This document shows, piece by piece, positions 4,564 to 53,311 of a DNA stretch of 64,000 nucleotides. Each line of letters begins with the position of its first letter. Position 1 is the first letter of the stretch. Made by a program: the position numbers and the translations under genes. The notes under the pieces were generated by a model. It saw nothing but the letters and a program-made list of their open reading frames with translations, did not search any database and had not been told where the DNA came from. This DNA is from an uncultured Treponema sp. Lineage in GTDB: Bacteria > Spirochaetota > Spirochaetia > Treponematales > Treponemataceae. The DNA lies in NCBI GenBank assembly GCA_947166355.1, contig CAMVDX010000005.1, positions 101,650 to 165,649 on the forward strand, read 5' to 3'.

Positions 4564-6336
4564 CTAATATGTCTTCGCCGTAAAGCTTCGTTTAACCTTT
4601 TGAGAGGTAGTCATTTCCAGCGGCTCTTTAAGCAGCGTAATCTTAGAAATCTGTGAGTAAGCCTGAAAGTTCTTATTCACCTTGCTTACAATTTTCTGTA
4701 CGGCTTCCATAACTTCATCCTGTACAAAGGTGTTGTTACGTTCAACGCCAAGACTCTTAAATAAATCATCACTCGGGTAAATCAAAGCTTCAATTTCTTC
4801 AGAAGTTTTTTCTTCATCAGCATAATAACCGCGAACTGTTATCTGCTGAATCTCATCGTAAAGTTGGAATGCATCTTCAATCTCTTCAGGATAAACATTT
4901 TTTCCGCCGCTTGTTACAATCAGATTCTTTGCACGGCCGCAAAGCTTAATGTATCCTTCCTTATCGATGCTTCCAAGGTCGCCGGTTTTTAGGAAGCCGT
5001 CATCAGTAAACATTGCCTTGGTTTCTTCAGGCATGTTAAAGTAGCCCTGCATTACCATAGGTCCCTTAACGGCAATTTCACCGACCTCTTCAATTCCCTT
5101 CTTTGTAATTACTTTTTCCGGATCAAGAATTTTGATTTCTTCATACGGTGCAAATGAACGGCCAACACTTTCAATCTTAAAATGTTCAACCGGATTCAGT
5201 GCTATAATCGGTGAAGTTTCTGTAAGGCCGTATCCCTGAATAAAATCAATACCCATAGCGTTGTACTGACGGCATACACTTGCAGCGAGCGGACCTCCAC
5301 CAGAAATTGCAACACGGATTGTGTAAATACTTGCCTGCTCCAGAACCGGCTTAAAAAGACGTTTTCCTACATTTACGTGGAAAAGCTTTTTGATAATAAA
5401 AGAAATCCAGCTTACACAGCCGAGGAGCCCTGCAACAACAGGACCTTTAGCCTTAATTCCTTTTCTGATTCCCGAAAGCAGCTTGTTGTAAAGGAGCGGA
5501 ACTCCGAGCATTACGGTAATCTTACCTTCTTTGAGCTCGCGCAAAAGCTTAGAAACTGCCATGCTTTTTCCAAAAACAATGGAAGCTCCGCTTTCAAGCG
5601 GATTTATAAACGCTGCCTGCATTGTGTATGCGTGGTGAATCGGGAGCAGTGCATAAAAAACATCAGTGTTGTAATGATTAAAGTTTCGCTGAGCAATAAA
5701 GCCGTCTGCAATCAGATTCTTGTGAGAGAGCATTACGCCCTTAGGCTTACCGGTTGTGCCGGAGGTAAACAAAATAGCGGCCGTATCAAATTCATTGCAA
5801 GGCTCGTTCTTTTTGTTATCAGCTACAGGTTCGGCCTTAAGATTATAAATAAACCGTTCGTTATCTTCTGGATTTATAGAATAAACCTTGAGCTTTGGAA
5901 AATTCTTAGTATAGATTTCTGCCTTTTCGTCATCACAGAAAACAAAAACAGGCTCAGCCGTGTTTACAATATTAATAACTTCAGGTTCATGAAGACCGTT
6001 ATCAACAGGAACAACAATTCCGCTTGCAAAAAGTGTTGCAAGATAAGCAGTGGCCCACTCAGGAGAGTTTTTACCCATTACTGCAACACGGTCACCTTTT
6101 TTAAGCCCGTTTGCCGTGAGCCAGTTTGCAAGGTTCTGAATATTCGCCAGAACTTCATTGTAGGTGAGGGTACGCTTAGAATCATCCGGACCGTCAAAGG
6201 CCACAAAGAAAGGTCTCTCGCCGTTACGTTTTGCCTGAATCCGCACAAGCTCCGGGAATGTCGGCCATTCACCTTTAAAGTCTGTGCCCCTAAAATCATC
6301 AAGATACTTCCATGGAATATTATTAATGTCTGCCAT
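4564..6336 (-). CDS. long-chain fatty acid--CoA ligase (AMP-binding)
   Basis: ILFTSGTTGKPKGVMLSHKN and GYGLTETSP, KTGDLGSIDKEGY motifs. Confidence 0.9.
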   Translation of the reverse strand: MADINNIPWKYLDDFRGTDFKGEWPTFPELVRIQAKRNGERPFFVAFDGPDDSKRTLTYNEVLANIQNLANWLTANGLKKGDRVAVMGKNSPEWATAYLATLFASGIVVPVDNGLHEPEVINIVNTAEPVFVFCDDEKAEIYTKNFPKLKVYSINPEDNERFIYNLKAEPVADNKKNEPCNEFDTAAILFTSGTTGKPKGVMLSHKNLIADGFIAQRNFNHYNTDVFYALLPIHHAYTMQAAFINPLESGASIVFGKSMAVSKLLRELKEGKITVMLGVPLLYNKLLSGIRKGIKAKGPVVAGLLGCVSWISFIIKKLFHVNVGKRLFKPVLEQASIYTIRVAISGGGPLAASVCRQYNAMGIDFIQGYGLTETSPIIALNPVEHFKIESVGRSFAPYEEIKILDPEKVITKKGIEEVGEIAVKGPMVMQGYFNMPEETKAMFTDDGFLKTGDLGSIDKEGYIKLCGRAKNLIVTSGGKNVYPEEIEDAFQLYDEIQQITVRGYYADEEKTSEEIEALIYPSDDLFKSLGVERNNTFVQDEVMEAVQKIVSKVNKNFQAYSQISKITLLKEPLEMTTSQKVKRSFTAKTY

Positions 6337-6395
6337 AAGTAATATTTTACACCCAAATTTCTCTTAAAGCAAAAAATAAAGTGTTATTAGAATGG

Positions 6396-6576
6396 AGGAG
6401 GGGGAAGCGTGCGCAACATAGTTGCTTCGAGACTCGCTAAAAACAGTCCACCGGACTGTTTTTGCCCTGCTTCGCAGTGCCGCTCCCTACCCCCTCGCTC
6501 CCAAGTCCTCACTCACTTCGTTCGCTTCGGTCTTGTCCGCTACCCCTCTCCTAAGGTGGTCCGCCCCCTTAAGAAC
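6396..6576. repeat. composite intergenic palindromic repeat (type A variant carrying type D in its hairpin)
   Basis: gggggaagcg...accccctcgctc flanks an about 80-bp segment with AAAAACAGTCCaccGGACTGTTTTT; the same 80-bp segment recurs at 53185-53263. Confidence 0.7.
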
Positions 6577-6696
6577 CTCTGGATATTCCCAGCGAGTTTG
6601 CAAATTTGGTAGTGAGACTTAGCGAATATACAACGTGCGAATTAGCCTATTAAACAATTGCAGGAAAACAATTTTCGACAAAAATAGACATTTTTA

Positions 6697-6705
6697 TGCT
6701 ATAAT
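6697..6705 (+). promoter_or_regulatory. candidate extended -10 promoter of hsdM (TGcTATAAT)
   Basis: tgctataat upstream of the hsdM ATG at 6734; -35 is weak. Confidence 0.5.
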
Positions 6706-6733
6706 TAAATTTATATTATAAGGGATATAAAAA

Positions 6734-8260
6734 ATGATAACTGGCGAAGTAAAAAATAAACTTGATAATCTTTGGGATGCAATGTGGTCAAATCAGATGA
6801 CCAACCCTCTTATTGATATACAGCAGATAACTTATCTTATTTTCATCAAAATGCTTGATGACCAGCAGATTAAAAAAGAACGCAAAATCAATGACATGAT
6901 GGCTCGTGGTATCAAAATTGATAATTTTGACAAGGACCTCATTTTCAAAGATGGCTGCTATGTTAATGATGATTTGAATATTAATGTTTGTTATGCAGAT
7001 CTTCGCTGGAATGTTTTTTCTCACTTTGAATCAAAGAAGATGTTTGCAAATCTTCGAGATAATGTTTTCCCATTTATCAAAACTCTTCACGGTGACAAGG
7101 CAACCTCCTTTACTGATTTTATGAAGGATGCACAGTTTGCAGTTTCATCTCCATACATTTTGCAGAAAATGGTTGATGCCATTAATGATCCTGGACTTGG
7201 GTTTGACAAAGCCGATTTAATGGGAGACTGCTACGAATACCTTCTTTCAAAATGGGCTACATCTGGTGACAACGGACAGTTCCGCACTCCACGCCACATC
7301 ATAGATATGATGGTAGAAATTGCAAAGCCTACACTCAAAGATACAATGATTGACCCAGCAATGGGCTCTGCCGGATTCCTTGCTGAAACTGCAAAATATA
7401 TAGAAGAACATTACTCTGCAGAACTATCTGATACAGAAAAACGCAAACATTTTGATAATACAATGTTCACTGGCTACGACACCGACCCGGACATGCTTCG
7501 CATTGGCTGTATGAATATGACACTTCACGGAGTAAATAATCCGACTATCAAATACAATAACTCGGTTGGAGAGGATTACGAAGATAAGGAACTCTACTCT
7601 TTGATTCTTGCAAACCCACCATTCAGCGGAAGCCTTGATCCTAGTACCGTTGCAAAATCATTGAATCAGATTAGCGGTGGAACAAAGAAAACTGAGCTTC
7701 TCTTTTTAAGCCTCTTCCTGCGACTTCTCAAAACTGGCGGCCGTTGTGTAAGCATCATTCCTGTTGGCGTTTTGAACAACACAAACGACAAAGCCTACAC
7801 AAAACTTCGCAAGGAACTTGTAGAAAATCAAAAGCTTGAAGGTGTAATCTTTATGCCGGGCGGAGTTTTCTATCCATATTCTGGAGTTCAGACAGGTATC
7901 CTTATCTTTACAAAAACAAATGCCGGCGGAACCGACAAAGTCTGGATGTACAACATGGAAAACGACGGTTATAGTTTGGACCAGAAGCGCGATCCAATCG
8001 AAACAAACGACATCCCCGACATCATCAACCGCTGGAGCAATCGTGATAAAGAAGCAGAACGCACTCATTATGAAAAGTCTTTCCTAGTAGATAAACAGGA
8101 AATTGTAGATAACGATTATGTGTTCAGCTTTAACAAATATCAGAAAAAGGAAGTTGTAAAGAAAGAATATCGTCCTGTAAAAGAAATCTTTGCTTCGATC
8201 AATGAACTGGAAAAGCAGTTTACTCAGATTATGAATGAGTTACAGGGAGCTGCGGAATGA
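6734..8260 (+). CDS. hsdM: type I restriction-modification system, DNA methyltransferase subunit
   Basis: N6-adenine methylase motifs: DPAMGSAGFL and LILANPPFSGS. Confidence 0.95.
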   Translation: MITGEVKNKLDNLWDAMWSNQMTNPLIDIQQITYLIFIKMLDDQQIKKERKINDMMARGIKIDNFDKDLIFKDGCYVNDDLNINVCYADLRWNVFSHFESKKMFANLRDNVFPFIKTLHGDKATSFTDFMKDAQFAVSSPYILQKMVDAINDPGLGFDKADLMGDCYEYLLSKWATSGDNGQFRTPRHIIDMMVEIAKPTLKDTMIDPAMGSAGFLAETAKYIEEHYSAELSDTEKRKHFDNTMFTGYDTDPDMLRIGCMNMTLHGVNNPTIKYNNSVGEDYEDKELYSLILANPPFSGSLDPSTVAKSLNQISGGTKKTELLFLSLFLRLLKTGGRCVSIIPVGVLNNTNDKAYTKLRKELVENQKLEGVIFMPGGVFYPYSGVQTGILIFTKTNAGGTDKVWMYNMENDGYSLDQKRDPIETNDIPDIINRWSNRDKEAERTHYEKSFLVDKQEIVDNDYVFSFNKYQKKEVVKKEYRPVKEIFASINELEKQFTQIMNELQGAAE

Positions 8261-9339
8261 AAAAATTTTTTGCAGAAGTTCTTGAAATAAAAAATGGTCG
8301 CAATCAAAAAGCTGTTGAAAATCCAGATGGTCTTTATCCAATTTATGGTAGTGGTGGTATTATGGGGAGAGCAGATGATTATATCTGCAATGCAGGTACA
8401 GTTATTGTTGGCAGAAAAGGGACAATAAATAATCCCATATTTGTAAATGAACCATTTTGGAATGTTGATACAGCCTTTGGTCTTGAAGCAAACAAAGATG
8501 TTCTTTATCCAAAATATCTTTTTTATTTTTGTAAAAATTTTGATTTTGAATCCCTAAATACTACAGTTACAATACCAAGTCTTACTAAGAATAACCTTCT
8601 CAAGATTCAAATGCCAATTGTTTCTCTTTCCGAACAACAAAAAATCGCCGCAGAACTCGACACCATCCAATCTGCAATCGATAACAAAAAACAGCAGCTT
8701 GCTTTGCTTGATGAAGCTGTCAAATCCGAATTTGTCGAGATGTTTGGAGAGAATCCCGTTGAGAGCGGAAAATGGAAAGTGGAAAGATTACAGTCACTCT
8801 CAAAATCAGGAGGGGCATATGGTGCACAGTCTGCTTCTTCTGAATATAAAAAAAATCGTCCGAGATATATCCGCATTACAGATATAAACGAGGATGGTTC
8901 TCTAAATAATGATGTGGTTTGTTCCAGTAATAATGATGATGATACTACATATAAATTGGTTAAAGGTGATTTCCTTTTTGCACGTATGGGAGCTACTGTA
9001 GGAAAAACCTATGCTTATTCTTCTGGAGATATGATTTTTGCCGGTTACCTAATACGATTTCAGTTGAATACTGAAAAAATAGATCCATCTTTTCTTTTTT
9101 ACTTTACTAAAACAGAATGGTATCAAAAATGGGTTAAAAACAATCAGAGTGGTGCTGCACAACCGGGAATCAATTCAAATAAATACGGAAATCTATTAGT
9201 TCCAGTACCTCCCCTCGACCTTCAAATCAAGTTCGCCAGCTTCGTCGAACAAATCGACAAATCGAAATTTGTTGTAAAACAACAGATTGCAGATTTACAG
9301 GAACTGTTAGACAGCAAAATGCAAGAATATTTCTCGTAA
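8257..9339 (+). CDS. hsdS: type I restriction-modification system, specificity subunit (two TRDs)
   Basis: Overlaps hsdM by 4 bp; two target-recognition domains separated by conserved coiled-coil (SEQQKIAAELD...LLDEAVKSEFVEMFGE) and a C-terminal conserved region. Confidence 0.92.
   Translation: MKKFFAEVLEIKNGRNQKAVENPDGLYPIYGSGGIMGRADDYICNAGTVIVGRKGTINNPIFVNEPFWNVDTAFGLEANKDVLYPKYLFYFCKNFDFESLNTTVTIPSLTKNNLLKIQMPIVSLSEQQKIAAELDTIQSAIDNKKQQLALLDEAVKSEFVEMFGENPVESGKWKVERLQSLSKSGGAYGAQSASSEYKKNRPRYIRITDINEDGSLNNDVVCSSNNDDDTTYKLVKGDFLFARMGATVGKTYAYSSGDMIFAGYLIRFQLNTEKIDPSFLFYFTKTEWYQKWVKNNQSGAAQPGINSNKYGNLLVPVPPLDLQIKFASFVEQIDKSKFVVKQQIADLQELLDSKMQEYFS
8723..8750 (+). repeat. hsdS central direct repeat, copy 1 (28 bp)
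   Basis: aatccgaatttgtcgagatgtttggaga, identical to 10939-10966. Confidence 0.9.
9240..9272 (+). repeat. hsdS 3' direct repeat, copy 1 (33 bp)
   Basis: cttcgtcgaacaaatcgacaaatcgaaatttgt, identical to 11462-11494. Confidence 0.9.
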
Positions 9340-9350
9340 ATTTATCATGA

Positions 9351-9396
9351 AATTTCTTTCATAATAGCAAGGAAGGAGTCTATTATGAAAGAAATT
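9351..9396 (+). promoter_or_regulatory. perfect 17-bp inverted repeat spanning RBS and start codon of the recombinase gene
   Basis: AATTTCTTTCATAATAG-caaggaaggagt-CTATTATGAAAGAAATT; loop carries the Shine-Dalgarno, right arm carries ATG 9385. Confidence 0.85.
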
Positions 9397-10377
9397 CTAA
9401 TCAAAAATATTGAACAGCAAATGTGTTCAGTTTTAAACAATGCACAAAATCAAAAACTTCATGAAGTTCTTATTCATTGTTTTTATGAAGTAACTGTTTC
9501 TTCAGGCATAACAAATAACAATCAATCTGTTAAAGATAATTCTTCTCTACTTGAAAACTTTCTAGCAGCAAAACATGTAGAAGGATGTTCTGAACGCTCT
9601 ATAAATTATTATAAATCTACTTTACAGAAAGCAATCGCCATACTTCACAAACCATTTAATCAAATAGAAACCGAAGATTTACGGAAATATCTTTCAGATT
9701 ATCAAAAAATCAACAATGCAAGCAGAATGACAATAGATAATGTAAGGCGAATCCTTTCCACATTCTTTACCTGGCTTGAAGATGAAAACTATATTCTTAA
9801 AAGCCCGGTTCGCCGTATTCATAAAATCAAAACAGCAAAACTTGTAAAAGAAACTTATTCTGATGAAACGCTGGTATTGCTTCGTGATAATTGCAAAACA
9901 GCCCGCGATCTTGCAATTATAGATATGCTAGCCTCTACAGGAATGCGAGTAAGCGAGCTTGTAACTTTGAATCGCCAGGACGTTGATTTTGTAAACCGTG
10001 AATGTGTGGTATTTGGAAAAGGTTCCAAAGAACGACCTGTGTACTTTGATGCGCGAACAAAAATTCATCTTCTAAACTATTTGAACGAGCGCAAAGATAA
10101 TAATCCAGCTCTATTTGTAAGCCTTCTTGAACCGCACAACAGATTACAAATCAGTGGTGTTGAAATAACCCTCCGAAAGCTTGGTCGAAGCCTTAATATC
10201 CAAAAGGTACACCCTCATAAATTCCGTAGAACTCTGGCAACCCAAGCAATAGACAAGGGGATGCCTATAGAACAGGTCCAAAAGCTTCTAGGTCATCAAA
10301 AAATTGATACAACTATGGAATATGCCATGGTTGACCAGCAAAATGTCAAAGTTTCTCATAAAAAATACATTGGTTAG
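9385..10377 (+). CDS. tyrosine recombinase / integrase (XerC/D-like)
   Basis: Complete catalytic set: STGMRVSEL (R), GKGSKERPV (K), HPHKFRRTLAT (HxxR), LLGHQKIDTTMEYAMV (H..Y). Confidence 0.92.
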   Translation: MKEILIKNIEQQMCSVLNNAQNQKLHEVLIHCFYEVTVSSGITNNNQSVKDNSSLLENFLAAKHVEGCSERSINYYKSTLQKAIAILHKPFNQIETEDLRKYLSDYQKINNASRMTIDNVRRILSTFFTWLEDENYILKSPVRRIHKIKTAKLVKETYSDETLVLLRDNCKTARDLAIIDMLASTGMRVSELVTLNRQDVDFVNRECVVFGKGSKERPVYFDARTKIHLLNYLNERKDNNPALFVSLLEPHNRLQISGVEITLRKLGRSLNIQKVHPHKFRRTLATQAIDKGMPIEQVQKLLGHQKIDTTMEYAMVDQQNVKVSHKKYIG

Positions 10378-10418
10378 AGTATGAACATTTTCAAATCCGA
10401 ATTTATAGTGCCAACTAG

Positions 10419-11582
10419 ATGGAGTATAAAATGGAATATCGCTTAACAGATTTATGTGAATTAATAATGGGACAATCTCCGGATTCTTCTAGTTGCAATA
10501 AAGATGGAAAAGGGATTCCTTTTTATCAAGGCAATGCTGATTTTGGAGAGAAAAATCCTACACCAAGGAATTGGTGCTTACAGCCTAAAAAGATTGCCCA
10601 AAAAGACGATATTCTAATTTCTGTTCGAGCTCCTATTGGGGATTTGAATATTGCAAATGAGGATTGCTGTATAGGGCGAGGTGTCGCCGCTATTCGAATG
10701 AAGTCCAAAGAATGTGATAGAGATTATTTATATTTATTTCTTGAAAGCAAATCTAAATATCTACAAGACTGTGGAACAGGTTCAACTTTTACAGCAATAA
10801 ATAAAGGGGTATTAGAGTCATTAAAAGTAAAATGCCCTGAATTAAAGAATCAAACAAGCATTGCGAATGAAATTGAAAATATAAAAGCTGCAATTAAGTA
10901 TAAAAATTCGGAATTAATATGCTTAAATGAGGCTGTACAATCCGAATTTGTCGAGATGTTTGGAGAAGGTAGTTGCAAGCAAATTCCATTTTCTGAATAC
11001 GCAGAAATAATCGATGGTGATCGAGGTAAAAACTATCCAAAAAGCGAAGATTTTTCAGATGATGATTATTGTTTATTTTTAAGCGCTAAGAATGTCACAA
11101 AAAACGGTTTCCTATTTGAAAATAATCAGTTTATTTCAAAAGAAAAAGATGAAATCTTGAGGAAAGGTAAACTAAATAGAGGTGATATTGTAATCACAAC
11201 TAGAGGAACTATAGGTAATATAGCATATTTCGATGATTCAATTCCTTATGAAAATATAAGGATCAATTCAGGAATGGTAATTATTCGTAATAAAGATTTA
11301 GAATTTAATCAAAGATTTTTCTTGGAAGCTTTTAGAAATAAAATTGATGAAATTATTGCAACTCAAGTTACTGGAGCGGCACAACCACAATTGCCAATTC
11401 ATATTATGTCTAAAATAACACTACCTTACCCTGATTTACCTCTTCAGAATAAGTTCGCTGCCTTCGTCGAACAAATCGACAAATCGAAATTTGTATTGCA
11501 ACAACAACTACAATTTATCAAAAAATATGATATAATGACATCTTGGAGAAAAATATGCTTTTATACCACGGTAGCAATGTAG
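10419..11582 (+). CDS. hsdS: second type I specificity subunit, altered C-terminus
   Basis: Two different TRDs with the same conserved regions (EAVQSEFVEMFGE, KFAAFVEQIDKSKFV); C-terminal tail runs into the next gene. Confidence 0.88.
   Translation: MEYKMEYRLTDLCELIMGQSPDSSSCNKDGKGIPFYQGNADFGEKNPTPRNWCLQPKKIAQKDDILISVRAPIGDLNIANEDCCIGRGVAAIRMKSKECDRDYLYLFLESKSKYLQDCGTGSTFTAINKGVLESLKVKCPELKNQTSIANEIENIKAAIKYKNSELICLNEAVQSEFVEMFGEGSCKQIPFSEYAEIIDGDRGKNYPKSEDFSDDDYCLFLSAKNVTKNGFLFENNQFISKEKDEILRKGKLNRGDIVITTRGTIGNIAYFDDSIPYENIRINSGMVIIRNKDLEFNQRFFLEAFRNKIDEIIATQVTGAAQPQLPIHIMSKITLPYPDLPLQNKFAAFVEQIDKSKFVLQQQLQFIKKYDIMTSWRKICFYTTVAM
10939..10966 (+). repeat. hsdS central direct repeat, copy 2 (28 bp)
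   Basis: Identical to 8723-8750. Confidence 0.9.
11462..11494 (+). repeat. hsdS 3' direct repeat, copy 2 (33 bp)
   Basis: Identical to 9240-9272. Confidence 0.9.
11528..11536 (+). promoter_or_regulatory. candidate extended -10 promoter (TGaTATAAT) for the DUF3990-KAP operon
   Basis: tgatataat inside the 3' end of hsdS2, 18 bp before ATG 11555. Confidence 0.5.
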
Positions 11583-12031
11583 AAGTTTCAAATCCTCAAA
11601 TATTGGAATCAGACAGACGCCTAGATTTTGGCAAGGGATTCTACCTTACCTCCAGCTTTGATCAGGCTAAACGCTGGGCCGAATTAACTGTAAAAAGACG
11701 AGGAAGTGGAAAAGAGACTGTTTCAGTTTTTGAGTTTGATGATACCTCTGTTTCAGGCTTAAAGATTCTACGTTTTACTCAGGCCCAAAGAGATTGGCTT
11801 GAGTATGTCACAATGAATCGTAAAAATCAGATTATTCCAAACGACGATTATGATATAGTAATAGGTCCTGTAGCAAACGACAGAACAATGCCAGTTATAA
11901 GTCTTTATTTTGCTGGAATCTATGATATTGAAGAAACGATAAAAAGATTGATGCCGCAAAAATTGTGCGACCAGTATACTTTTAGAACTGAAAACGCGAT
12001 AAAAAAACTAAAATTTCTGGAGGCAAAATAA
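11555..12031 (+). CDS. DUF3990-like protein (possible ADP-ribosyltransferase fold)
   Basis: MLLYHGSNVEVSNPQILESDRRLDFGKGFYLTSSFDQAKRWA; ATG 11555 chosen over TTG 11543, preceded by ggag. Confidence 0.75.
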   Translation: MLLYHGSNVEVSNPQILESDRRLDFGKGFYLTSSFDQAKRWAELTVKRRGSGKETVSVFEFDDTSVSGLKILRFTQAQRDWLEYVTMNRKNQIIPNDDYDIVIGPVANDRTMPVISLYFAGIYDIEETIKRLMPQKLCDQYTFRTENAIKKLKFLEAK

Positions 12032-12277
12032 ATGGGAAAAGAGCTGCCATATATTCTTCAGTTTTATGATAACGAAGTTTCTCTGCTTATAAGCAATAAA
12101 TATGGATATCCAATTATGGATTCCTACAGAAAGTTTTTATTTTCTAAGACCTACCAGATGCTTTGCAATCCTGAACTCGAAATGTGGGAATTTAGTCCTG
12201 CAGGAATTTTTGATATGTGGGAAGCTGAACTTGTTACAGGAGAACCTCGTAATTCCTTGTATTTAAGGAGGGACTAA
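12032..12277 (+). CDS. small hypothetical protein (81 aa) in the DUF3990 cassette
   Basis: ATG directly abuts the previous stop; stop directly abuts the next ATG. Confidence 0.7.
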   Translation: MGKELPYILQFYDNEVSLLISNKYGYPIMDSYRKFLFSKTYQMLCNPELEMWEFSPAGIFDMWEAELVTGEPRNSLYLRRD

Positions 12278-12484
12278 ATGTCAAAAGAAATGGAATTCTT
12301 TACTTTCCTTATGGAGCAATACGCACGCTATAAAAATACAACAGCAGATAAGATTCTTCATAAACTTGATGAATTAAAACTGACTGATTATGTTTTTAAT
12401 ATGTACGAAATGTATCATAGCGAAGCATTGGAAAATGCTTATGCAGATATAGATAAGCTTATTGAAAGTAAGTCAAAATGTTAG
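12278..12484 (+). CDS. DUF3791-like small protein (68 aa)
   Basis: EMEFFTFLMEQYARYKNTTADKILHKLDELKLTDYVFNMYEMYHSEALENAYADIDKLI pattern. Confidence 0.65.
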   Translation: MSKEMEFFTFLMEQYARYKNTTADKILHKLDELKLTDYVFNMYEMYHSEALENAYADIDKLIESKSKC

Positions 12485-13911
12485 CAGAAATAGATATTCT
12501 CAACCGACAAGAATTTATTGATAAAATTATTTCTACAGTTGAATATCATTCAAAAAACAATTTGAAAGCATCTTTTTCTATTCAAGGTGAATGGGGATGT
12601 GGTAAATCTTGGATATTAGATAGAGTTTTTGAAAATCTATATGACATTCAAGATGAACAGATTGCTGGTGGCCGTTATTGTGTTTTCAGATACAATGCAT
12701 GGAAATACGACTATTATGATGAGCCGCTGGTTTCTTTACTAATCAGTCTGAAAGAACAGTTAGAATCAGAAAACTCAATTATCCTTAAAACTCCAGAAGC
12801 CCAGAAAAATTATCAAGCTGTAAAACTGATGATAAAGGAAAAACTCCTAGATACTTTGGATGTAATTCAGAAAAATCCTTTATTTTCGATTATTGATTCT
12901 CAAACTTTTCATATCCCAAGTCTGTTTTGTTTTGGTGCATCTGTTAAAAAGGAATTTGAAAAGTATAAAGATAAGGTAAAAGAAGAAATCAGGCAATATG
13001 ATCCTCATTATGATTTGAATCAGCTGATGAACTCTATGATAAAAGGATTGAATCAGATTTCTTCAGAAAAAACAGTTGTTGTAATTGTAGATGAGTTAGA
13101 CCGATGCTTACCTGAACACGCTATAAAAGTTTTGGAACGAATGCATCATATCAGCCAGAATGTGAACAATATTCAATTTATTTATGGCATTGATAAGACT
13201 CAAATTGAGAATAATGTAGTACAGATTTTTCTTTCCAATAATTCTAATGTTAAAATACAAAGAGAAAGAATTAACCAATATCTTTCAAAGTTTATTACAT
13301 TTGGTCTACATGTTCCAAAAACAAAATATACTGATGCGATTGAAAGGAAATATCCAGACCTATTTGAGACTTTTACTCAGGTAAATGTATGCAATTTTAA
13401 CCTAATTGAAAACATACAATTAATCTCGTCTGCTGTAACTCCAAGAATTCTTGAGCAGGCAATAAGTAAAATTGTTTTAACCAATGGTGTTTTAAATCAA
13501 AATTGCGAAAAATTGGATAATTCAATTCTTGTTTTTGAATTATTTTTCGCGGTTTTGAGAGAAGTTGGAAAAGGTTTAGGTGGCCGTTATTTTAAGAATG
13601 ATTATAATAATCATTCACTCGAGTTGCGAAATACAGATAATGATACATTTAATGATATTTATAACAAATTGATTTTACCAAATCCTGTTATGTATGGTCA
13701 TATACAAAGATCAAAAGATGATTATCCATTATGGACGGACTTTGATAATGGGAATAAAGCAATTTTTCCTTCCGCAATGGTTTTCTATTTCGAAAAAATC
13801 ATGCAATTAAGAAATTTTTATTTTGATGATAAAGAGATACAGAAAGAAATGGAGAACAATGTTGAATATCTAAAACAGTTTATTTCTTATTATGTATCTT
13901 TAGATATGTAA
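12478..13911 (+). CDS. KAP family P-loop NTPase
   Basis: Walker A QGEWGCGKSWILDR, FNAWKYDYYDEPL-like segment (YNAWKYDYYDEPL), Walker B VVVIVDELDRCLPEHAIKVLE; start overlaps the DUF3791-like stop (ATGTTAG). Confidence 0.85.
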   Translation: MLAEIDILNRQEFIDKIISTVEYHSKNNLKASFSIQGEWGCGKSWILDRVFENLYDIQDEQIAGGRYCVFRYNAWKYDYYDEPLVSLLISLKEQLESENSIILKTPEAQKNYQAVKLMIKEKLLDTLDVIQKNPLFSIIDSQTFHIPSLFCFGASVKKEFEKYKDKVKEEIRQYDPHYDLNQLMNSMIKGLNQISSEKTVVVIVDELDRCLPEHAIKVLERMHHISQNVNNIQFIYGIDKTQIENNVVQIFLSNNSNVKIQRERINQYLSKFITFGLHVPKTKYTDAIERKYPDLFETFTQVNVCNFNLIENIQLISSAVTPRILEQAISKIVLTNGVLNQNCEKLDNSILVFELFFAVLREVGKGLGGRYFKNDYNNHSLELRNTDNDTFNDIYNKLILPNPVMYGHIQRSKDDYPLWTDFDNGNKAIFPSAMVFYFEKIMQLRNFYFDDKEIQKEMENNVEYLKQFISYYVSLDM

Positions 13912-13924
13912 TTCCAGAAGTCTG

Positions 13925-13933
13925 TGGTATAAT
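13925..13933 (+). promoter_or_regulatory. candidate extended -10 promoter (TGgTATAAT) upstream of hsdR
   Basis: gtggtataat in the 40-bp gap before ATG 13952. Confidence 0.45.
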
Positions 13934-13951
13934 TATTATGGAGTAGAAACT

Positions 13952-16900
13952 ATGAACTTTGATTACCTGAAATCAAATGCAAAACTAAGTGAGCTTTATA
14001 CACTCTGTAATGAAACTGAAATATTTGCCGTTAATTTTCCAACACCTTCAGCACGTTCTGCTCGCAATGCTTTGGAATGGGTAGTCAAACTTTTTTATCT
14101 GACTAAAAAAGGTAAATATTCAGAAACTTCAACTATATTTGATTTAGTAAACTCCGCTGATTTTACTTCTTATATTGATGAGCCTTTATTAAGCGCAATT
14201 CATTTAATTCGTATGATTGGAAATAGTGCCAGCCATGCAGAAGTTGTATCAAAGAATGAATCATTAAAAGTTCTGGAAGCTCTTCATAATGTTGTAGGAG
14301 AGATTTTAAAATTCTTAGGAATAATAGATTCATATCCTGCTTTTGATAAATCAAAAATTCCATCAGTAAGTCCTGTTACTCCTGAACCTGTTAGCCTTGA
14401 TTCTAATGGGCAGCCAAAGAAAAAATATAAAGTTGTAATTGTTAAAAAAGATTTTGAAGGGTATAAGAAGAAAATTGATACTTCTTCAAAAATGTCTTCA
14501 TCAATTGATTTTTCTGAAGCTGAGACTCGTAAGATTTTTATTGATGCGGCACTTCGAGAAGCCGGCTGGACTGTTTGTCAATCAAAAGGCCTTATAAAAG
14601 CCGGAACTGCAAGTATTGAAATCCCTGTAAAAGGAATGCCTTCTACAAGTGGTGATGGTTTTGCGGATTATGTTCTTTTTGATGATGATAATAAACCACT
14701 CGCAGTCATTGAAGCAAAACGTACATCAAAAGATGTAGATGCCGGAAGTGTTCAGGCACGTCTTTATGCAGATTGCCTAGAGAAAACATATAATGTCCGT
14801 CCTGTAATCTTCTATACTAACGGTTATCAGATTTATATGGTTGATGGCGGATATCCTGCAAGAAGAGTTTTTGGATATTATTCTAAAGAAGAATTACATT
14901 CGCTTATCGTAAAGAGAAAACTTGATAAGATTACAGATAATCGTGTAGACACAAATATTTCTGATCGCCCGTTTATTCAGATGGCATGTACTGCCGTGTG
15001 TGATGCTTATTCTGCAAAACGCCGTAGCGCCTTAAATGTAATGGCTACAGGAACAGGAAAAACTCGTTTTGCAATTTCTCTTGTTGATATCTTAATGCGC
15101 AATGACTGGATAGAACATGTTTTATTCTTGGCAGACAGAAAGGAACTTGTGAGCCAGGCATTTAAAGCTTTTGAAAAACATCTACCGGATTCTTCACGTT
15201 GTGCAATCTATTCAGGTTCCCCAACAGAACTTGATTTGAATGCACGTATTGTTGTTTCAACTTATCCAAGTATTTTAAATCTTATTGATGCTGATGAAAG
15301 AAAATTCGGTGTTGGTCATTTTGATTTAATTATTGTAGATGAGTGTCACCGCTCTGTTTATAACAAATACCTTGCAATCTTAAGATATTTCGATTCGCTG
15401 GTTCTGGGATTAACCGCTACGCCAAAAGACCAGGTTGATGCTGATACTTACACTCTGTTTGGCGTTGATAAAAACAAACCAACTTATGAATACGATTATG
15501 AGACTGCAGTAAAAGAAGGCTTCCTTGTTGATTATACTGTAATTGACAAAACAACAAAGCTTCTAAAAAGAGGTTTAAAGTATTCTGATTTATCTGATTC
15601 AGAAAAATCAGAATATGAAGATGAATTTACAGAAGATGGCGTTATGCCACAGGAAATACCGCACGATGAATTTTACAAAAATATAATAAATCTTCCTACA
15701 ATAGATTTGGTTATCAATACATTGATGACACAAGGCCTTAGAACAAAAGGTGGCGAAGAGCTTGGAAAAACAATTTTGTTTGCAGTGGATCATGAGCATG
15801 CGGTAAAAATTGTTGAGCGCTTTAAGTATTTATATCCAGAAAAAGGAGACACTTACTGTCAGCTGATAGACTATTCTGTTAATTATGCTAGTACTATTAT
15901 TGATGACTTTAAGGTTCCAAATAAAGAGCCTGTAATTGCTGTTAGTGTTGATATGCTTGATACAGGAGTTGATGTGCCTGAAGTTTTAAATCTTGTTTTC
16001 TTTAAGAGAGTACGTTCTCCTATTAAGTTCTGGCAGATGATAGGTCGTGGAACTCGTATCTGTAAAAACTTTGAAGTATTCTCTCCAGATGCTTCTACTT
16101 TTGGAAAACATGAGCAGAGTGAACCTGCAGAACCAGTTGAATGCAAAGATTATGATTCAAAACAAGGCTTCTTTATTTTTGATTTCTGCGACAATTTTTC
16201 ATTCTTCAGCATGAACCCTAAGGGAGTTATTCCAAAGCATACACTTTCAATTACAGAACGAATTTTTAATCTTAAGCTTGATATGGTTGCAGCTCTTCAA
16301 GGAATTGAACATCAGGAAAATCCAGATCATAAAAAGTATTATGACAAATGGCGTAAAGAACTATGGACTTGTGTAAAAGGCTTGAAGCGTCATCTTGTAA
16401 ATGTAAACTGGGAAATTGCTTATGTTGATAGATATTCAAATGAATTTGAATGGTTTGATTTACATAAAATCAAAGTTGCACAAATAAAATCTCAGATTAC
16501 ATATCTTGTTGAAAGTAATGATAGCGATATATATGCAAAGACTTTCGATGCCTGGCTTTTCAATATGGAACTTACTGAAATTTTGGGAGAAAAGGACTAT
16601 AACAAGGCAATCGAAAAGGTAACGACAGTTTGTTATAAGCTCTTGGAAAAAGTTCAGATTCCTCAGATTAATGAAAAAGCTGAAACCCTTGAGAAGATTT
16701 GCTCAACTGAATTCTGGCAGGAAAGAAGTCTTGATAAATTGGAGTTTGTAAGAACTGAAGTTCGCGATTTAATGAAATTCCTTGTTGAAGAAAAACCACC
16801 AATCAAAGTAACAAACTTTGAAGATGAATTGGTTGATAAAAAAGATTCTGGTGGCCATGTAACTCCAAGTATCAAAAATTATAAGCAGCGAGTTTTAGAT

Positions 16901-17323
16901 TATCTGGCTGAAAACGATGATTCTGCTGTTATCTGGAAAATTAAGAATCTTGTTCCTATCACAGAAAATGATGTAGAAAAGTTACAGCAGATTCTATGTG
17001 AAGAATTGGGTACTCCAGATGAATATGAAGAATTGGCAAAAGGCGCACCTCTTGCAGTATTCGTTCGTAAGATAGTTGGTCTTGAAGTTGAAGCAGTAAA
17101 TAAGATTTTTAGTGATTACTTGTCAAAATACAATTTTAATTCTGCACAGGAAGAATTCTTGCATCAAATTGTTACTTATGTATTGCAAAATGGTGATATT
17201 GTCCCAGCAAATATTATTTCAAACGCACCATTTAATAATCTGGATTACACAGAAATCTTTGATGATAATTCTGATGCAGTGTTTGAATTGATTGATGTAC
17301 TACATGGAGCAATTGCGGCATAA
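13952..17323 (+). CDS. hsdR: type I restriction endonuclease, motor/nuclease subunit with N-terminal DUF4145-like domain
   Basis: PLAVIEAKRTSKD nuclease motif, MATGTGKTRFA Walker A, DECHRS Walker B, IGRGTRICKNF helicase motif. Confidence 0.93.
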   Translation: MNFDYLKSNAKLSELYTLCNETEIFAVNFPTPSARSARNALEWVVKLFYLTKKGKYSETSTIFDLVNSADFTSYIDEPLLSAIHLIRMIGNSASHAEVVSKNESLKVLEALHNVVGEILKFLGIIDSYPAFDKSKIPSVSPVTPEPVSLDSNGQPKKKYKVVIVKKDFEGYKKKIDTSSKMSSSIDFSEAETRKIFIDAALREAGWTVCQSKGLIKAGTASIEIPVKGMPSTSGDGFADYVLFDDDNKPLAVIEAKRTSKDVDAGSVQARLYADCLEKTYNVRPVIFYTNGYQIYMVDGGYPARRVFGYYSKEELHSLIVKRKLDKITDNRVDTNISDRPFIQMACTAVCDAYSAKRRSALNVMATGTGKTRFAISLVDILMRNDWIEHVLFLADRKELVSQAFKAFEKHLPDSSRCAIYSGSPTELDLNARIVVSTYPSILNLIDADERKFGVGHFDLIIVDECHRSVYNKYLAILRYFDSLVLGLTATPKDQVDADTYTLFGVDKNKPTYEYDYETAVKEGFLVDYTVIDKTTKLLKRGLKYSDLSDSEKSEYEDEFTEDGVMPQEIPHDEFYKNIINLPTIDLVINTLMTQGLRTKGGEELGKTILFAVDHEHAVKIVERFKYLYPEKGDTYCQLIDYSVNYASTIIDDFKVPNKEPVIAVSVDMLDTGVDVPEVLNLVFFKRVRSPIKFWQMIGRGTRICKNFEVFSPDASTFGKHEQSEPAEPVECKDYDSKQGFFIFDFCDNFSFFSMNPKGVIPKHTLSITERIFNLKLDMVAALQGIEHQENPDHKKYYDKWRKELWTCVKGLKRHLVNVNWEIAYVDRYSNEFEWFDLHKIKVAQIKSQITYLVESNDSDIYAKTFDAWLFNMELTEILGEKDYNKAIEKVTTVCYKLLEKVQIPQINEKAETLEKICSTEFWQERSLDKLEFVRTEVRDLMKFLVEEKPPIKVTNFEDELVDKKDSGGHVTPSIKNYKQRVLDYLAENDDSAVIWKIKNLVPITENDVEKLQQILCEELGTPDEYEELAKGAPLAVFVRKIVGLEVEAVNKIFSDYLSKYNFNSAQEEFLHQIVTYVLQNGDIVPANIISNAPFNNLDYTEIFDDNSDAVFELIDVLHGAIAA

Positions 17324-17367
17324 TAATTTATAAGTTTTATCTCACAGGGGGAGTTCCCCTCACTCTT

Positions 17368-18615
17368 ATGTTTATGCAGAAAAATCACGACAATATAAAT
17401 ATGATGATTTTGGATTACTTTTCGTTTTTTGGAGAGAAAGGGGCGCGAGCCGCTGCTAAGAAGGTTTTATCGGTGATGCTGCTGGCGTTCTGTATTTGCT
17501 GTGTAAAGCTTTGTGCGGAAGATACGAGTCCGGCTGAGGCGCAGGTAATGCGCGAAAAATTTGTTGCAGAATCTAAAAAACATGTGGGAGCTCCTTATGT
17601 GCTTGGGGCTGTTGGGCCTGATAAATTTGACTGTTCGGGGCTGGTTTATTATTCGGCACGAGAGTCTATTCAAAAACAGCTTCCGCGTACGGCTAAGGCA
17701 ATTTACAATTTTTGCCGTATTGTGCCAGATAAAGATAAGGAAGTTGGCGATCTTTTATTTTTTCAGACAAATAGTACGGCTCCGATAACTCATGTAGGTA
17801 TTTATATAGGAAACAATCAGTTTATATCTGCAATTAGTGACGGGCCGAATACTGGTGTAATTATATCTTCACTTAATCAGGATTATTGGAAGCCTAAGTA
17901 TAAGGGCTGTGGGCAATTTTTACCATCAGGAAAAAATAAGTCTGGCAAAAATGGCGGATCTGGAGGAACAGGAGACGATTTTGAGGAAGAGGACTTTATT
18001 GACGATGAAAGTGGAGCTGTTGCTCGTGCAGATCGTTCCGGCGGTTCTCAGATTGGAGGAAGCAAGGTAAATTTTAAAGGCAGCAGTTTTTATAATCCTA
18101 AGGCTGAAGGACTTGATACTTTGACGGCGGATGCTACGATATTCTGTAACTGGTCGCTACTTTCTCCTAAATCTTTTATGTTCCAGTGGCGTGGTATAGA
18201 TTTGCAGACAAATATTCGTTATTCCAAATGGGTGCTTGAGCCGGGCCTCGGTTTCGGACTGCATTTTGATTACGGACTCAGAATTTTCCAGATTCCGGTT
18301 TATTTTTCTGCAACTGTAAATGATTACTTCAGATTTTATGCAGGGCCGGTAATTTCTTTTGGAAACGGCAAAATGATGGTAACTGGTGATGAAATTAAGC
18401 CTTCTGTGTTCCCGGGGGTTCTTGGAGTTTCTTTTTCAACTCCGGCATTTAATATTGCAAAGACAAAGCTCCAGGTAGTTCAGGATATCTGTTATACGGT
18501 TTACAATAAAATAGATAATTCTGCACTTTCACTGCTGGATTCTGTTTCTGCGGGCTTAGTTTTTTACACCGGCGTGCGGGTAACCATGAACGCGGGAAGT
18601 TTGTTTGGTAAGTGA
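17368..18615 (+). CDS. secreted NlpC/P60-family peptidase with a beta-rich, barrel-like C-terminus
   Basis: KFDCSGLVYYSARES, GDLLFF..THVGIYIGNNQFI motifs; start uncertain, signal peptide begins near 17476. Confidence 0.8.
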   Translation: MFMQKNHDNINMMILDYFSFFGEKGARAAAKKVLSVMLLAFCICCVKLCAEDTSPAEAQVMREKFVAESKKHVGAPYVLGAVGPDKFDCSGLVYYSARESIQKQLPRTAKAIYNFCRIVPDKDKEVGDLLFFQTNSTAPITHVGIYIGNNQFISAISDGPNTGVIISSLNQDYWKPKYKGCGQFLPSGKNKSGKNGGSGGTGDDFEEEDFIDDESGAVARADRSGGSQIGGSKVNFKGSSFYNPKAEGLDTLTADATIFCNWSLLSPKSFMFQWRGIDLQTNIRYSKWVLEPGLGFGLHFDYGLRIFQIPVYFSATVNDYFRFYAGPVISFGNGKMMVTGDEIKPSVFPGVLGVSFSTPAFNIAKTKLQVVQDICYTVYNKIDNSALSLLDSVSAGLVFYTGVRVTMNAGSLFGK

Positions 18616-53171: not shown

Positions 53172-53311
53172 GTCATGCTGAACCTTCGCAGCATAGCTGC
53201 TCGGAGACTCGCTAAAAACAGTCCACTGGACTGTTTTTACACTGCATAGCAGTGTCGCTCCCTATGTTTCAGCATCTAGTGAATAGCCCCTGAAACAAGT
53301 TCAGGGTGACA
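53172..53311. repeat. composite repeat: type C with type D nested inside
   Basis: gtcatgctgaac-[type D 53185-53263]-tttcagcatctagtgaatagcccctgaaacaagttcagggtgac; D hairpin AAAAACAGTCCactGGACTGTTTTT. Confidence 0.78.

Follow-up and report, generated by a model that had tools for sequence, protein, structure and literature searches.

Several Type I restriction-modification (R-M) loci carry further genes within their operons. The EcoprrI locus contains a toxin gene, that of the anticodon nuclease PrrC. In the RptR-RMS-DarTG-M48 island of E. coli, the ADP-ribosyltransferase (ART) toxin-antitoxin module DarTG2 occupies the position between hsdS and hsdR; this island gives protection from phages, and the study describing it proposes that the position is a hotspot (PMC12255303). 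A Vibrio Type I locus with TgvAB inside it is a further example (PMC11411939). The pneumococcal tvr locus (SpnIV) shuffles the halves of its hsdS genes: DNA is excised and reintegrated via direct repeats at their mid-points and termini (PMC6265443). The island described here lies in a 64,000-nucleotide stretch (the window) of contig CAMVDX010000005.1 from an uncultured Treponema sp. The host is a gut Treponema, and the island is a mobile DNA-restriction island with the gene order hsdM-hsdS1-recombinase-hsdS2-DUF3990-81-aa ORF-DUF3791-KAP-hsdR. We put at about 0.7 the probability that its hsdS-hsdR slot holds two unrelated cargoes: an autonomous toxin-antitoxin module of the PDC-M13 type, formed by the three small genes (the trio), and an independent candidate defence ATPase of the KAP family that was already there when the trio arrived. 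Both cargoes were already catalogued as candidate anti-phage genes; new here are the interpretation of the trio as a toxin-antitoxin system and the history of recombination.

The three genes of the trio are adjacent and all match models of PDC-M13 in PADLOC-DB 2.0 strongly: DUF3990 at 11555-12031 (PDC-M13A, E = 4e-68; PF13151, E = 1e-49), a predicted ART-fold toxin; the 81-aa open reading frame (ORF) at 12032-12277 (PDC-M13B, E = 3e-34), predicted to be the first part of a helical antitoxin; and DUF3791 at 12278-12484 (PDC-M13C, E = 1.2e-31; PF12668, E = 2e-16), predicted to be the second. PDC names denote unvalidated candidates that were detected by their embedding in known systems (PMC12988326). 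PDC-M13 is among the commonest of these, a single rumen survey listing 3324 loci (PMC13356809), and the literature found assigns no mechanism to it. As a domain, DUF3990 forms the C-terminus of the Serratia Rhs5 type VI secretion system (T6SS) effector (PMC4524185). A TTG at 11543 was considered as the start of the window's DUF3990 and dropped; ATG 11555 is favoured by a Shine-Dalgarno-like GGAG and by agreement with relatives.

An AlphaFold2 (AF2) model of DUF3990, based on an alignment of 78 sequences, reached a pLDDT of 93.4. Searched with Foldseek against the PDB, it matched best the P. putida RES toxin of the RES-Xre system (E = 6e-5), followed by PARP1 and exotoxin-A-type ARTs. Model and search agree on an ART fold, which the preliminary description of this DNA had raised as a possibility; a search by sequence found no relative of known structure for either DUF3990 or KAP. 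Three residues are near-invariant in the alignment, H5 (77/78), Y30 (78/78) and Q140 (78/78), a pattern consistent with the HY-[E,D,Q] triad known from CmdT (PMC11618068), with Q140 taken as the third residue by its position in the strand order and not by superposition. Like CmdTAC, the trio is a three-gene ART module, the likeness being seen in layout and triad but not shown in sequence. The partners are two helical proteins, and no SecB-like chaperone was matched among the cassette genes; in CmdTAC, CmdT depends on CmdA to fold. RES-Xre offers the nearest solved fold, and long DUF3990 variants likewise pair with Xre-type proteins, yet identity to RES is only about 12% at a TM-score of about 0.5, and the short form of DUF3990 has no helix-turn-helix partner. 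The long form with its Xre partner matches PDC-M42, and DUF3990 also matches PDC-M10. It is conceivable, though we hold it only tentatively, that PDC-M10, PDC-M13 and PDC-M42 together form a single, very common superfamily of ART toxin-antitoxin modules, in which two small helical proteins or a single Xre protein would control the toxin and one of them would sense infection, and which would have been recruited repeatedly into shuffling Type I operons, combining restriction with abortive infection.

DUF3990 has obligate partners. Among 146 full-length copies, 127 are accompanied by DUF3791 and a homologue of the 81-aa protein, 13 by an Xre-family protein alone and one by DUF3791 together with an Xre protein, which brings those with a scored partner to 141; two more lie at contig ends and three have no scored partner. 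A gene for a 149-aa product adjoins two of these three (L151 and L154), and in L151 that product looks like an 81-aa protein fused to DUF3791. Bacteroidota have the 81-aa protein and DUF3791 as a single fused protein, and in L140 DUF3791 is fused to DUF3990. Homology between the 81-aa protein and the Xre partner was unsupported (P 0.03). The partners also outlive the toxin, being found without an intact DUF3990 at seven loci (L084, L085, L088, L091, L092, L153 and a second pair in L172); in L085, which lies in a sister Type I island, DUF3990 is reduced to about 20 residues. We read the trio as a toxin-antitoxin system because its partners are near-universal and because loss runs one way, as such a system predicts, partners surviving without an intact toxin. 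Fold, obligate partners and one-way toxin loss together yield a specific, testable prediction, that of an ART toxin with two antitoxin proteins. The second pair in L172, a Roseburia Type I locus, lies at about 9384-9626, directly behind a complete trio.

The KAP P-loop NTPase (12478-13911; PF07693, E = 1e-24) belongs to PDC-S20 (E = 2e-79) and shows no family-level difference from it; its neighbour in this slot is PDC-M13. Its three closest relatives among 201 genomes (G172, G105 and G001; 94, 67 and 41% identical) likewise stand between hsdS and hsdR. The closest, in G172, stands in an island of the order hsdM-487aa-hsdS-KAP-hsdR that lacks the trio. Identity between the window and this island is 89% across KAP and hsdR (12487-17323), 90.5% in hsdM and 98.7% in the first half of hsdS1. 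The block holding the trio (11454-12479), on the other hand, has 92-95% DNA identity to L074 and L075, whose HsdR proteins are only 58-63% identical to that of the window. Its left junction lies in the hsdS 3' region and its right junction within the first KAP codons, where G172 encodes MNDIQSLSEIDIL and the window MLAEIDIL. Since a G172-like KAP and hsdR are thus joined to an L074/L075-like trio block, recombination most likely brought the trio into an island that already held KAP; the first KAP codons were replaced at the junction, and the join between trio and KAP is therefore a recent fusion. These comparisons indicate that KAP most likely occupied the slot first and that the trio arrived later, by recombination via the hsdS 3' region; judged by its sequences, the slot thus holds two independent, exchangeable cargoes with separate histories. 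In this island the exchange of Type I operon cargo can be followed to the base pair, from KAP to the later trio, with the junctions identified. A second defence island in the same genome (L080, C4 60000-79900) contains hsdM and hsdS, PDC-S13, an AriA/PtuA-like ATPase, a PD-Lambda-2_B match and three KAP genes, at least two of which are PDC-S20.

Other cargo is found in the same slot of related loci, namely DarT and DarG (L082), a caspase-domain protein with an unknown protein (L074), DUF3800 (L076) and PDC-S19 (L108), and in G132 the slot is empty. For an accessory toxin or defence module in this position, as the preliminary description had envisaged, DarTG2 in E. coli is a published precedent (PMC12255303), and the sister locus L082 carries both DarTG and the trio. 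DUF3990 differs from DarTG2 in belonging to another Pfam family, in having small helical partners and in lacking a DarG macrodomain, and no RptR or M48 gene is seen in the window's island. In L074 (10199-12583) the caspase-domain protein and a 296-aa protein, neither of which matches PADLOC-DB, stand between hsdS and the trio. A second cargo slot, between hsdM and hsdS, holds a Schlafen AlbA_2/HATPase protein in two related islands (L085, 14562-15983; L109, 8080-9543).

The trio recurs within Type I operons of Treponema, of Clostridia (between hsdS and hsdR in L172, L189 and L170) and of Moraxella osloensis plasmids, where it lies between hsdM and hsdS in the order hsdM-DUF3990-83aa-DUF3791-hsdS-hsdR with 4-bp gene overlaps. 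The plasmids are a compact natural version of the trio in a Type I operon and suited to laboratory work. Recurrence, which the preliminary description had made a test of its four-gene cassette, is seen for the trio in Type I loci of several phyla, the four-gene set being found once. In L170 (816-3436), a Clostridia Type I locus, there are two DUF3990 systems, one of the long variant and one of the trio type.

In the mechanism we propose, DUF3990 would be an NAD+-using ART-fold toxin that the 81-aa protein and DUF3791, as small helical proteins, jointly hold inactive. Infection would unbalance or remove the small proteins and so free DUF3990, which would modify a cellular target or consume NAD+, and growth of the infected cell would stop. 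When no infection occurs, the trio might also penalise loss of the island. KAP, of the PDC-S20 family, would be an independent candidate defence ATPase that preceded the trio in the slot.

A number of points weigh against this proposal. Toxicity, neutralisation, trigger, target and phage protection are steps that we infer for the trio. The Foldseek TM-scores for DUF3990 are modest, at about 0.5, the resemblance of DUF3791 to the 81-aa protein (hhalign probability 85%) no more than suggests homology, and a model of the fused 81-aa/DUF3791 protein matched nothing in a fold search of the PDB. The loci that have lost the toxin are few, and two of them, L091 and L092, are possibly one allele. Furthermore, because most copies lie away from R-M genes, the case for an antiviral function rests partly on the PADLOC embedding argument.

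The strongest alternative is that the trio is an addiction module serving solely to keep the island or plasmid, with no specific antiviral role. DUF3990 occurs on 72 plasmid records in PLSDB, in up to 11 copies in one genome and usually alone, as this alternative would have it; yet the trio is repeatedly found inside defence operons, beside DarTG and other defence cargo, and its nearest characterised embedded analogue, RptR-RMS-DarTG of E. coli, belongs to an anti-phage island (PMC12255303). We regard stabilisation alone as possible but clearly the less probable explanation.

A PrrC-like guard, with the toxin kept silent by the R-M enzyme and set free by phage anti-restriction proteins, is improbable. 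Tight operonic coupling of the trio to hsd genes in the Moraxella plasmids and in L172 and L189 would suit such a guard, as would the repeated changes of hsdS linkage on a tree of 132 DUF3990 sequences (the window included, its own label set by hand). In this tree 11 of the 132 lie beside hsdS, counting L177, a putative Type I locus, and all 11 fall in one part of 47 rows, with 0/85 elsewhere (Fisher p 5e-6, uncorrected for relatedness). The linkage label changes eight times, at least four of the changes being forced by starred branches, with gain and loss indistinguishable. However, about 90% of the surveyed DUF3990 genes, in a sample that carries the bias of a best-80 list, have no hsdS alongside, so that the regular R-M linkage of a PrrC-type system is absent, and every DUF3990 brings its own small partners, where a guard would depend on the R-M enzyme for silencing. 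Treponema copies close to that of the window also carry a promoter-like box of their own. In the window this putative extended -10 box (TGATATAAT) lies on the forward strand at 11528..11536 (accurate to a few bases), inside the hsdS2 tail, and the same box precedes DUF3990 in L074, L075, L076, L085 and L070. Upstream of DUF3990, TGnTATAAT was found at 11 of 136 loci against 0.46 expected from shuffles; a generic promoter scan, unlike this comparison, was uninformative (32 matches, 42 expected). DUF3990 is unrelated to PrrC, and no anticodon-nuclease family was found among the nine island proteins. The preliminary description had proposed a PrrC-like back-up and had named a location mostly away from R-M or defence genes among the observations that would refute it; this is where the trio is mostly found, and its tie to restriction failure is weakened for that reason. 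An autonomous abortive-infection or addiction module is likelier than a PrrC-like guard.

Slightly less probable again is that the trio mainly controls expression of the recombinase, as TvrT represses tvrR in the pneumococcal tvr locus (PMC6265443). The window has the tvr layout, but the trio lies downstream of the recombinase, and most Type I loci that bear a trio (L074, L082, L076, L172, L189 and Moraxella) have no recombinase in view. The least probable arrangement, and one we reject, is the four-gene unit of the preliminary description, in which one could picture KAP as a sensor ATPase for the toxin: the 7-base overlap of DUF3791 and KAP suggests translational coupling, but the full combination is seen in the window only, KAP stands without the trio in G172, G105 and G001, the trio stands without KAP everywhere else, and the replaced KAP codons mark a recent fusion. 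Our assessment is of a tvr-like Type I island that houses an exchangeable module, read as toxin-antitoxin, together with an ATPase independent of it.

The tvr-like character rests on the recombinase and the hsdS genes. A Xer-like tyrosine recombinase (9385-10377; PF00589; NF040815 at 236.6 bits, above the cut-off of 220) lies between two complete specificity genes, hsdS1 (8257-9339) and hsdS2 (10419-11582), each with two stretches matching PF01420, which in hsdS1 correspond to two target-recognition domains; the last codons of hsdS2 overlap DUF3990. As in tvr, there are a complete hsdS on both sides of the recombinase (a 2+2 layout) and two kinds of direct repeat, both on the forward strand. 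The mid-hsdS repeat D2, comparable to the tvr mid-point repeat, has copies at 8722..8750 and 10938-10966, with its left half alone at 10393-10404; the end-of-hsdS repeat D1, comparable to the tvr terminal repeat, has copies at 9240..9272 and 11462-11494. In L085 and L108 the D2 sequence also occurs directly 3' of the recombinase stop codon, at the start of a 3' half-hsdS. By analogy, the recombinase probably shuffles hsdS halves, and recombinase and spare hsdS are of a known kind, that of tvr-type hsdS shuffling. Inversion-type hsdS switching is not favoured, because the repeats are direct and because, in those relatives whose recombinase is intact, it points the same way as hsdS. A toxin-antitoxin module and a hairpin adjoining the recombinase gene are further shared features. 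The tvr toxin belongs to a different family, with Doc/Phd homologues, whereas the window has its trio downstream of hsdS2 and KAP as extra cargo.

The hairpin (9351..9396, forward strand) is a 17-bp perfect inverted repeat that overlaps the recombinase start codon (RNA fold z -4.8). Hairpins of different sequence occupy the same place in L085 (11812-11874, z -7.6), L108 (7420-7482, z -2.2) and L115 (13051-13113, z -3.3). All four span the recombinase's Shine-Dalgarno region; those of the window and L085 also include the start codon. The hairpin is possibly a brake on recombinase translation, recalling the tvr attenuator. In L085 (10251-14565) two near-identical recombinase units stand in tandem, each followed by a 3' half-hsdS, and hsdS modules there seem to travel with their own recombinase.

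The remaining genes complete the Type I system. The methyltransferase gene hsdM lies at 6734-8260 (PF02384, E = 1.4e-58; PF12161), and hsdR, for the restriction/translocase subunit, at 13952-17323 (PF04851, PF04313, PF08463; REase_I, E = 1.4e-146). Catalytic motifs are kept in HsdM (NPPF), HsdR (GTGKT/DECH/EAK), KAP (GEWGCGKS and VVIVDELD) and the recombinase (R/HxxR/LGH/Y). With coordinates checked, all nine genes are intact and on the forward strand, which bears out the gene order, positions and single orientation given in the preliminary description; the tight junctions it reported also hold, apart from gaps of 40-45 bp around the recombinase and before hsdR.

The whole island extends over 6388..17340, its right end being approximate and its left end set by the divergence of the window from L249. 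It is bounded by two conserved genes, an AMP-ligase gene on the left (4564-6336, minus strand) and an NlpC/P60-type gene on the right (17368-18615). In L247 (G078), L249 (G003) and L250 (G025) these two genes are separated by 28-130 bp, the empty site, and L249 aligns with the window up to about 6387 and diverges beyond. Because the flanks are adjacent in three relatives and the match with L249 ends at about 6387, the island is an insertion of about 11 kb between the two genes. A G+C-rich element at 6412-6489, 5' of hsdM, has a second copy at 53187-53264 (87% over 78 bp) and recurs weakly in other loci of the genus.

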